Source: an uncultured Alphaproteobacteria bacterium (GTDB lineage: Bacteria > Pseudomonadota > Alphaproteobacteria > UBA2966). From it: a stretch of DNA of 64,000 nucleotides. The notes beneath the pieces are model-generated. The model made no database searches and was not told the DNA's origin. It saw only the letters and a program-made list of their open reading frames with translations. Numbering within the stretch: position 1 is the first letter of the stretch; every line of letters begins with the position of its first letter. Shown here piece after piece: positions 22,510-25,374 of this stretch. The DNA lies in assembly GCA_958295725.1 (NCBI GenBank), contig OY282368.1, positions 372,001 through 436,000 of the forward strand, in the 5' to 3' direction. The position numbers and the translations under genes were made by a program.

Positions 22510-25374
22510 ATGATCGACGCCGCCTCACCCGCCGCCGTCTCGCAGGAGCCCGATGGTGCCATCGAGGTCGTCCTGCAAACGACGCGCCACATGATGCTGG
22601 AACTCCAGCCGCATCGGCGGGATCGGCTGCACTTGACCGAGCGGACGCTGCTCGAACGCGACCTCGGACTCGACAGCCTCGGACGGATGGAGCTGTTCGT
22701 CAGGCTCGGCCGCGAGCTGGACGTCGATATCCCGGACGGCGCGCTCGCCACGGTCGAGTCGCTCGGCGATCTGGCGGCGGCCATCGACGCCGCGGGCGCC
22801 GGGCGCGGGCGGGCGCGTCTCGACAGCGCCGGCCGCAGACGCGGCCTCGAACGGGTCGCGGCGCTGCCGCTGGGCGCGTCGACGCTGACGGAGATGCTCG
22901 ACTGGCACGTCCTCGCGCACCCGGACCGTCCGCACGTCTGCTTCATCGACGACGGGGGCGGAGAGAGCACGCTCACCTACGCCGGGCTTCGCGAGGCGGC
23001 GCGCGCGGTCTCGGCGGGGCTGGGGCGCCGCGACCTGGCGCCGGGGCAGGCCGTGGCGATCATGCTGCCGACCTGTCCGGAGTTCTTCGTGGTGTTCTTC
23101 GGCATTCTGATGGCGGGGGGCGTTCCCGTGCCGATCTATCCACCGGCCCGCCCGTCCCAGATCGAGGATCACCTGAAACGGCAGGCGGCCATCCTGCGCA
23201 ACGCCGAGGCGCACGTCCTCGTCACGGTCGAGGAGGCCAGACGCGCCGCCCGCTTCCTCCGCGCGCAGGTCGCGTCGCTGCGCCACGTCGCGACGCCGTC
23301 GGAGATCTCGGTCTCGGCGGGCGACTCGCCCGGCATTCCGTCGCGCCCCGAGGATCTGGCCTTTCTCCAGTACACCTCCGGCAGCACGGGGGAGCCGAAG
23401 GGCGTCGCGCTGACCCACGCCAACCTGCTCGCCAACATCCGGGCGATGGGGACGGCCCTGAAGGCGGAATCGACGGACGTGTTCGTCAGCTGGCTGCCGC
23501 TCTATCACGACATGGGGCTGATCGGGGCCTGGCTCGGCAGCATGTACCATGCCGTGAAGCTCGTCGCGATGTCGCCGCTGACGTTTCTGGCACGCCCCGA
23601 ACGCTGGCTGTGGGCCGTTCACCGCCACGGCGGGACCCTGTCGGCGGCGCCCAACTTCGCCTACGACCTCTGTCTCAAGCGGATCGACGACCGCGACATC
23701 GAGGGGCTGGATCTGAGCTCCTGGCGCGTCGCCGCCAACGGGGCGGAGCCGGTCATCGCCGCGACCGTCGAGGGCTTTTGCGAGCGCTTCGCGGCCCACG
23801 GGTTCCGCCGGGAGAGCATGAAACCCGTTTACGGACTGGCGGAATGCTCGGTGGGGCTGGCGTTTCCGCCCCTCGACGGGGCGGTGTCGATCGACCGGGT
23901 CGACCGCGAGCGGTTCACGCTCCGCGGCGAGGCAGTTCCGGCCGGCGATACCCCGAGCCCGCTGTCGTTCGTCGCCTGCGGGCGTCCGCTTCCCGGCCAC
24001 GAGATCCGCGTCGTCGACGAGAGGGGGCGGGAATTGCCGGGGGGCCGGGAAGGACGCCTTCAGTTCTGCGGACCCTCGGCGACGCGGGGCTACCACCGGA
24101 ACCCGGCGGCGACCGCGGACCTGTTCGACGGCGATTGGCTCGAGAGCGGCGATCTCGCCTACATCCGCGACGGCGACGTCTACCTCACGGGACGCCGCAA
24201 GGACCTCATCATCAAGGCGGGCCGCAACATCTATGCCCAGGAGATCGAGCGGGTGGTGGGCCAGGTGGAGGGCGTCCGAATGGGGTGCGTCGCCGTGTTC
24301 GGGGTTCCCGACCGGGCCACCGGCGCCGAGAAGCTGGTCGTCATGGCCGAGACCCGGGAGAAACGCGACGACCGGCTGCGGGAGCTGCGGCGGCGGGTGG
24401 AAGAGGCGACGCTCGACGCCGTCGGCACGCCGGCCGACGACGTGGCGCTGGTTCCGCCGCGGACGGTCCTCAAGACCTCAAGCGGCAAGATCCGGCGGGC
24501 GGCCTGCCGGATGGCCTACGAGTCGGAAGGTTCGGCCACGACCCGGCGCGCGGTGCGGTGGCAGCTCGCGCGCCTGGCGGCGGCGAGCGTCGTGCCCGAA
24601 TGCTGGCGCGTCGCGCGCCGCGCGGCGGAGGCGGCCTACGTGGGTTGGTGGTGGGCGGCGCTGGGGCTCGCTGCCGGGCTGGTATGGCTCCCGGTCACCC
24701 TGGTCCCGCGCGTCCGGTTCTGCCGGGCGCTCGTCCGCTTCGGCATCCGGATGTTCCTGGCGCTGGTGGGCATCCGGACGCGGACGGAGGGCCTGGAGAA
24801 CCTGCCCGACGGTCCGAAGGTGCTGGCGGCGAACCACGCCAGCTACCTGGACGGGCTGGCGCTCCTGGCGTCGCTTCCCGGCGACTACGCCTTCGTCGCC
24901 AAGAAGGAGCTCGAAGGCTCGATCGGCACGGGCCCGTTTCTCGCGCATCTGGGAACCAAATTCGTCGAACGCTTCGACGCCCTGCAAGGAGTGGGCGCGG
25001 TGGCGGAGCTCAACGACGCCCTCGCCGCCGGCGAGACGCTCCTGTTCTTCCCCGAGGGCACCTTCCGCCGGATGCCGGGGCTGCTGCCGTTCCGCACCGG
25101 CGCGTTCGCCTGCGCGGCCCAGGGCGGCGTCCCCGTCGTTCCCGTGGCCCTGACCGGCACGCGATATATCCTGAGGTCCGGGTCCTGGTTCCCGAGATTC
25201 GGACGCGTGCGGATCGAGGTCGACCGGCCGGTCGCTCCGACCGGCTCCGACTGGACAGCGGTGCTGGAGTTGCGCGACCGCGTCCGGGAACGGTTGCTGG
25301 AACTGAGCGGGGAGCCCGATCTCGCGCACGAGACCGGCGTGATCTCCGCGCTCCGGGACAAGGCGGAGGCCTGA
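22510..25374 (+). CDS. Three-domain acyl carrier protein - fatty acyl-AMP ligase - PlsC acyltransferase
   Basis: The 954-residue protein joins three activities of acyl transfer. Residues about 15-95 are an acyl carrier domain with the phosphopantetheine serine Ser56 in LGLDS. Residues about 130-690 are an AMP-forming ligase of the FAAL type, with the ATP loop YTSGSTGEPKG starting at 288 and a GRRKDLIIKAGRNIY hinge region. After one or two membrane-associated helices (about 713-760) comes a PlsC acyltransferase with NHASYLD (His776, Asp781) and PEGT (848-851). The logical reaction is to activate a free fatty acid, load it on the built-in carrier and transfer it to a lysolipid or other hydroxyl. 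It stands alone. Confidence 0.9.
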   Translation: MIDAASPAAVSQEPDGAIEVVLQTTRHMMLELQPHRRDRLHLTERTLLERDLGLDSLGRMELFVRLGRELDVDIPDGALATVESLGDLAAAIDAAGAGRGRARLDSAGRRRGLERVAALPLGASTLTEMLDWHVLAHPDRPHVCFIDDGGGESTLTYAGLREAARAVSAGLGRRDLAPGQAVAIMLPTCPEFFVVFFGILMAGGVPVPIYPPARPSQIEDHLKRQAAILRNAEAHVLVTVEEARRAARFLRAQVASLRHVATPSEISVSAGDSPGIPSRPEDLAFLQYTSGSTGEPKGVALTHANLLANIRAMGTALKAESTDVFVSWLPLYHDMGLIGAWLGSMYHAVKLVAMSPLTFLARPERWLWAVHRHGGTLSAAPNFAYDLCLKRIDDRDIEGLDLSSWRVAANGAEPVIAATVEGFCERFAAHGFRRESMKPVYGLAECSVGLAFPPLDGAVSIDRVDRERFTLRGEAVPAGDTPSPLSFVACGRPLPGHEIRVVDERGRELPGGREGRLQFCGPSATRGYHRNPAATADLFDGDWLESGDLAYIRDGDVYLTGRRKDLIIKAGRNIYAQEIERVVGQVEGVRMGCVAVFGVPDRATGAEKLVVMAETREKRDDRLRELRRRVEEATLDAVGTPADDVALVPPRTVLKTSSGKIRRAACRMAYESEGSATTRRAVRWQLARLAAASVVPECWRVARRAAEAAYVGWWWAALGLAAGLVWLPVTLVPRVRFCRALVRFGIRMFLALVGIRTRTEGLENLPDGPKVLAANHASYLDGLALLASLPGDYAFVAKKELEGSIGTGPFLAHLGTKFVERFDALQGVGAVAELNDALAAGETLLFFPEGTFRRMPGLLPFRTGAFACAAQGGVPVVPVALTGTRYILRSGSWFPRFGRVRIEVDRPVAPTGSDWTAVLELRDRVRERLLELSGEPDLAHETGVISALRDKAEA

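Follow-up and report, generated by a model that had tools for sequence, protein, structure and literature searches.

The question raised by this locus is whether a single protein could activate a fatty acid, load it onto a carrier of its own and pass it on to a lipid, and which lipid would then be the acceptor. The window, that is, the whole analyzed stretch of 64,000 nucleotides from an uncultured alphaproteobacterium, contains a gene (22510..25374, + strand) for a protein of 954 amino acids that combines an acyl carrier (ACP), a fatty acyl-AMP ligase (FAAL) and a PlsC-type acyltransferase, as indicated by the ORF, Pfam matches, an alignment of 73 rows and a structural model.

Domains of the fusion protein and their conservation

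The ORF starts with an ATG at 22510, ends with a stop codon at 25372-25374 and contains no internal stops. Its codon score is higher than that of every overlapping frame, and the ORFs that overlap it in other frames were dismissed as shadows of GC-rich coding DNA. Rfam, promoter and terminator scans of the locus yielded nothing or matches at the level of chance. Pfam domains are found in the order PP-binding, AMP-binding, Acyltransferase, and the AlphaFold2 model, built with 73 homologs, has a mean pLDDT of 88.6 and a pTM of 0.80. The full-length homologs keep all three domains down to 44% identity, so that the architecture is far above chance. Conservation was counted column by column in the alignment of the 73 homologs, and the catalytic residues are retained in 66 to 73 of these. 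Therefore, loss of activity of one domain in most homologs, which the initial annotation had named as fatal to its reading, is not what is found; the description of one 954-residue protein with three active-looking domains and their key residues in place is borne out by the ORF, the Pfam matches and the alignment. As read from the sequence and the predicted structure, the domains, residues and fold of the fusion are established.

The acyl carrier domain occupies residues about 15-95 (22552..22794, + strand; PF00550 at 50-92, E=1.3e-7), with helices at 15-32, 56-70, 78-81 and 85-95 in the model. The phosphopantetheine site is Ser56 in the G-L-D-S-L motif, and the location of this D-S-L site within a helical bundle identifies the domain as an ACP by both sequence and model. 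Asp55 and Ser56 are each present in 72 of the 73 homologs. Two phosphopantetheinyl transferases that could prime the fused ACP are encoded in the same genome.

The ligase domain spans residues about 124-673 (22879..24528, + strand), with the Pfam AMP-binding match at 131-529 (E=2e-70). It contains the motifs QYTSGSTG.PKG (287-298), SWLPLYHDMGLI (327-338), YGLAE (441-445) and GD (547-548), as well as the catalytic Lys660 within TSSGKIRR; the lysine is invariant (73/73), and QYTSGST, LPLYHDMGLI, YG.AE and GD are conserved in essentially all 73 homologs. Together with this lysine, the A3, A5, A7, A8 and A10 motifs place the domain in the ANL superfamily of ligases. Both sequence and fold point to a FAAL rather than a CoA ligase. 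The top NCBIfam models for the fusion protein are those of fatty acyl-AMP ligases (PRK09192, E=2e-125), and the best sequence matches in the PDB are FAALs (7r7g, 3pbk and 3kxw, with E from 1e-90 to 1e-43), compared with 3e-33 or weaker for CoA ligases. The first Foldseek match is the Escherichia coli FAAL (3pbk_A, E=5e-53, TM 0.92 by target). The sole hint toward the FAAL-specific insertion, helix and blocked CoA pocket is a span from YHDMG to GAE that is 8 residues longer than in Aas. FAALs load ACP and reject CoA (PMC8460268).

The acyltransferase domain (residues 757-881; 24778..25152, + strand; PF01553, E=6.6e-25) is preceded by a pair of helices, 682-731 and 735-753, with the hydrophobic stretch AAYVGWWWAALGLAAGLVWLPVTL (24553..24768, + strand; secondary structure of the model and sequence) which is probably a hairpin that seats the protein in the membrane. 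The motifs of the acyltransferase are NHASYLD, with H776 and D781, AKKEL (797-801), FPEGTFRR, with E849-G850-T851, and VPVVPV (874-879). The presence of the HX4D and EGT blocks assigns the domain to the PlsC/LPLAT family, and N775, H776, D781 and E849 are invariant (73/73), G850 being retained in 72 and T851 in 66 of the 73 homologs. The acyltransferase part aligns over 186 residues with PlsC of Thermotoga maritima (5kym, E=5e-22), with which it shares the fold and the HX4D, KEL and EGT motifs; the fusion differs in having EGTF in place of EGTR and in being joined to its own supply of acyl donor. In block III, both 5kym and the E. coli PlsC have EGTR. The position that follows EGT in the fusion family (852) is F in 57 of the 73 homologs, L in 12 and R in 2, so that F or L replaces, in 69 of 73, the arginine characteristic of acyltransferases specific for lysophosphatidic acid (LPA). 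The prevalence of EGTF is a weak argument against LPA as the acceptor and names no other.

Comparison with Aas and spread of the family

The closest functional parallel appears to be Aas. The E. coli enzyme produces acyl-ACP as the donor for acylating lysophospholipids that LplT, an MFS protein, has flipped inward; the two proteins form a complex (PMC11416262). Aas and the fusion share an adenylate-forming ligase and a PlsC domain in one chain as well as an acyl-ACP thioester intermediate, which is predicted in the case of the fusion. The differences are, nevertheless, substantial. In E. coli Aas, PlsC (9-139) precedes the synthetase (360-675), whereas the fusion has its carrier at the front and the acyltransferase at the back, the reversal that was described at the outset and that the domain positions confirm. 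Furthermore, the two ligases are only 28% identical, that of the fusion being of the FAAL rather than the Aas type, and the fusion carries its own ACP and has no LplT, in contrast to Aas, which uses an external ACP. Profile scoring likewise keeps the fusion out of this family, its match to PRK08633 reaching 167.6 bits against a cut-off of 1221. Judged from its sequence, it is an Aas-like combination of FAAL, ACP and PlsC-type acyltransferase in one chain that falls outside the Aas family. An Aas-type protein was not found in the genome from which the window derives, matches of the PlsC and ligase parts of the Aas profile coinciding only in the fusion gene. Mutual exclusion of the two systems was considered and not retained because the difference is not significant (Aas in 2 of the 18 class genomes with the fusion vs. 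94 of the 367 without it, p=0.26).

The FAAL-ACP didomain proteins AmbG, HapA and NocH, which come from natural-product clusters (PMC11837247), similarly combine a FAAL with its cognate carrier in one chain; in the fusion, however, the ACP is N-terminal, the acyl acceptor domain is PlsC, and there are no PKS/NRPS genes alongside.

The view that the architecture is unusual in itself found no support: a search for the domain order returned dozens of genera from several phyla, and the gene in the window is an ordinary member of an ACP-FAAL-PlsC family. Full-length relatives with 44-81% identity occupy at least about 110 distinct loci, the majority of them in Pseudomonadota. A scan of GTDB genomes yielded at least 80 loci at 45-56% identity, almost all full-length, and the matches listed belong to Beta-, Gamma- and Alphaproteobacteria, Desulfobacterota, Actinomycetota (Mycobacterium innocens, Rhodococcus aetherivorans and Nitriliruptoraceae), Acidobacteriota, Planctomycetota and others. 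The gene resides on plasmids in Methylobacterium nodulans, Sinorhizobium sojae, Cupriavidus and Photobacterium. The presence of the fusion is patchy (18 of 385 genomes of the class and 6 of 398 genomes of the phylum sample), and annotated copies are labeled "AMP-binding protein."

A 2021 study (PMC8460268) notes fusions of lysophospholipid acyltransferases with certain FAAL-like domains of bacteria, gives their function as unknown and takes such unique architectures as signs of functions independent of PKS/NRPS. This is probably the same family; in that text, the mention does not extend to the ACP, the distribution, the residue conservation or the neighbors. No characterized member of the family was found in the open-access papers searched. 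A 2025 review of FAALs gave no match for membrane lipids or glycerophospholipids.

Proposed reaction and competing acceptors

Given the Aas-like activities together with a built-in carrier, the two phosphopantetheinyl transferases and the lack of Aas, activation, loading and O-acylation in cis are proposed. By analogy with characterized FAALs, the ligase domain would adenylate a free fatty acid with ATP to yield acyl-AMP, and the acyl group would then move, in cis, to the 4'-phosphopantetheine on Ser56, with neither CoA nor the general pool of ACP as recipient. The loaded ACP would swing to the C-terminal PlsC domain, seated at the inner membrane by the helix pair, where the H776/D781 center would acylate a lyso-glycerolipid, most probably a lysophospholipid, at its free hydroxyl. 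The outcome would be re-acylation, that is, repair or remodeling, with a scavenged or recycled fatty acid and with the CoA pool bypassed. We rate the chances as evenly balanced that the fusion is such a self-sufficient, Aas-like enzyme of acyl activation and transfer that re-acylates a lyso-lipid. Of the two roles suggested earlier, an unusual lipid or lipid repair, the latter is the better half of the guess, whereas the former found no support. Should the mechanism hold, it would amount to a widespread, CoA-independent, single-protein route for placing chosen fatty acids onto membrane lipids and would extend the role of FAALs beyond polyketide and lipopeptide synthesis.

A competing possibility, which we regard as doubtful although it is the strongest of the alternatives, is that the product is a specific non-phospholipid: the PlsC domain would serve as O-acyltransferase in the synthesis of an aminolipid or another special lipid, akin to the second step catalyzed by OlsA/SalA, and would receive a dedicated fatty acid from the FAAL and the ACP. 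The O-acyltransferases of aminolipids are indeed PF01553 proteins (PMC11631085), FAALs mostly supply dedicated products (PMC11837247), block III of the fusion is unlike that of LPA acyltransferases, and the patchy distribution fits a specialized lipid. However, across about 110 loci, genes of lipid synthesis, N-acyltransferases included, do not recur beside the fusion.

Synthesis of new phosphatidic acid from exogenous fatty acids, with the PlsC domain acting on 1-acyl-glycerol-3-phosphate in parallel to PlsX/PlsY/PlsC, seems unlikely. Among solved structures, the acyltransferase is most closely related to PlsC (1-acyl-sn-glycerol-3-phosphate acyltransferase), and FadD-type ligases adjoin the fusion or are located near it in four loci, but EGTF replaces the EGTR of LPA acyltransferases in most homologs, and the genome encodes separate PlsC-like proteins. 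That the fused ACP is a docking or regulatory relic, with acyl-AMP or acyl-ACP released to other pathways, is highly improbable because relics would be expected to lose the conservation seen for Asp55-Ser56 and the PlsC residues (72-73 of 73), even though a tandem ligase-only copy lacking ACP and PlsC adjoins the fusion in three loci.

Gene neighborhood and ATG22-type transporters

In the window, the gene is flanked upstream by a divergent aldo-keto reductase (21367-22386, - strand) and downstream by a gamma-glutamyltransferase, and it stands alone, as was originally noted, almost everywhere else too; a conserved operon was rejected because the direct neighbors vary almost throughout the approximately 110 loci. 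A recurring PKS/NRPS partner is not found in the sampled flanks. The aldo-keto reductase is 30% identical to E. coli tas, which adjoins lplT-aas, and this resemblance was taken as a coincidence.

The exception is an ATG22/UMF1-type MFS gene (PF11700) that adjoins the fusion in nine loci (L035, L055, L059, L060, L064, L068, L074, L096 and L131; the match in L064 is partial). It occurs in four arrangements, upstream or downstream and on either strand, which argue for repeated juxtaposition of the two genes. On a tree of 112 rows, the loci with this neighbor are dispersed, and its presence requires nine changes, the same as the number of rows that carry it, although some of these changes may be losses. 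In the sampled flanks, ATG22-type genes are found only directly beside the fusion, and most loci have no adjoining one. Assuming about one ATG22 gene per genome of some 4000 genes, chance would, by a rough estimate, place such a gene next to the fusion in about 0.05-0.1 loci, which makes the nine observed extreme (Poisson); given their presence, a rough slot model puts the chance that all nine lie directly beside the fusion at about 3e-6. PF11700 is present in 17 of the 18 class genomes with the fusion vs. 163 of the 367 without it (p 2e-5), a difference confounded by phylogeny and genome size. The genome of the window has one ATG22-type gene, far from the fusion.

This neighbor is a new lead that recalls LplT-Aas, the pair of a flippase and a reacylase, in that an MFS gene lies next door in some loci; the ATG22-type transporter is, however, not LplT, with which it gives no meaningful blastp match. 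On this analogy, it is conceivable, if rather unlikely, that ACP-FAAL-PlsC and certain ATG22-family MFS proteins make up a second flip-and-reacylate system of membrane repair that follows the logic of Aas with a built-in carrier, its transporter being unrelated to LplT and its build unlike that of Aas. If so, bacterial ATG22-family transporters would gain a lysolipid as substrate, and the recurring neighbor gives a specific connection to lysolipid transport that can be tested.

Several other neighbors are confined to a few loci. A second, ligase-only FAAL follows the fusion in tandem in L138 (6942-8780), L139 (4060-5964) and L140 (4142-6943), genomes that represent a sister family; these copies are 52-57% identical and match neither the ACP nor the PlsC part. 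A FadD-type long-chain acyl-CoA ligase is encoded upstream on the same strand in L142 (2191-3966) and L144 (2065-3723), as well as in L064 and L068. In L011, L012, L013 and L014, which represent one family, a Glu/Leu/Phe/Val dehydrogenase gene begins a few bases after the fusion. Stress-type genes, PolX and nicotinate phosphoribosyltransferase among them, are present near the copies of the fusion in L141, L144, L145, L038, L105 and L058, some on plasmids; a stress-island context (Usp, Hsp20, DUF302, LonB, FtsH and P-type ATPase) was discarded as evidence, these genes being too scattered across loci. In the window itself, a FadD7-like CoA ligase is encoded 3 kb downstream (28342-29877, - strand), with no sign of belonging to the system. 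Finally, three consecutive, overlapping genes for transporter-like membrane proteins of 514, 505 and 516 amino acids (14762-19367, - strand) are apparently tandem duplicates, judging by eye from their first residues.
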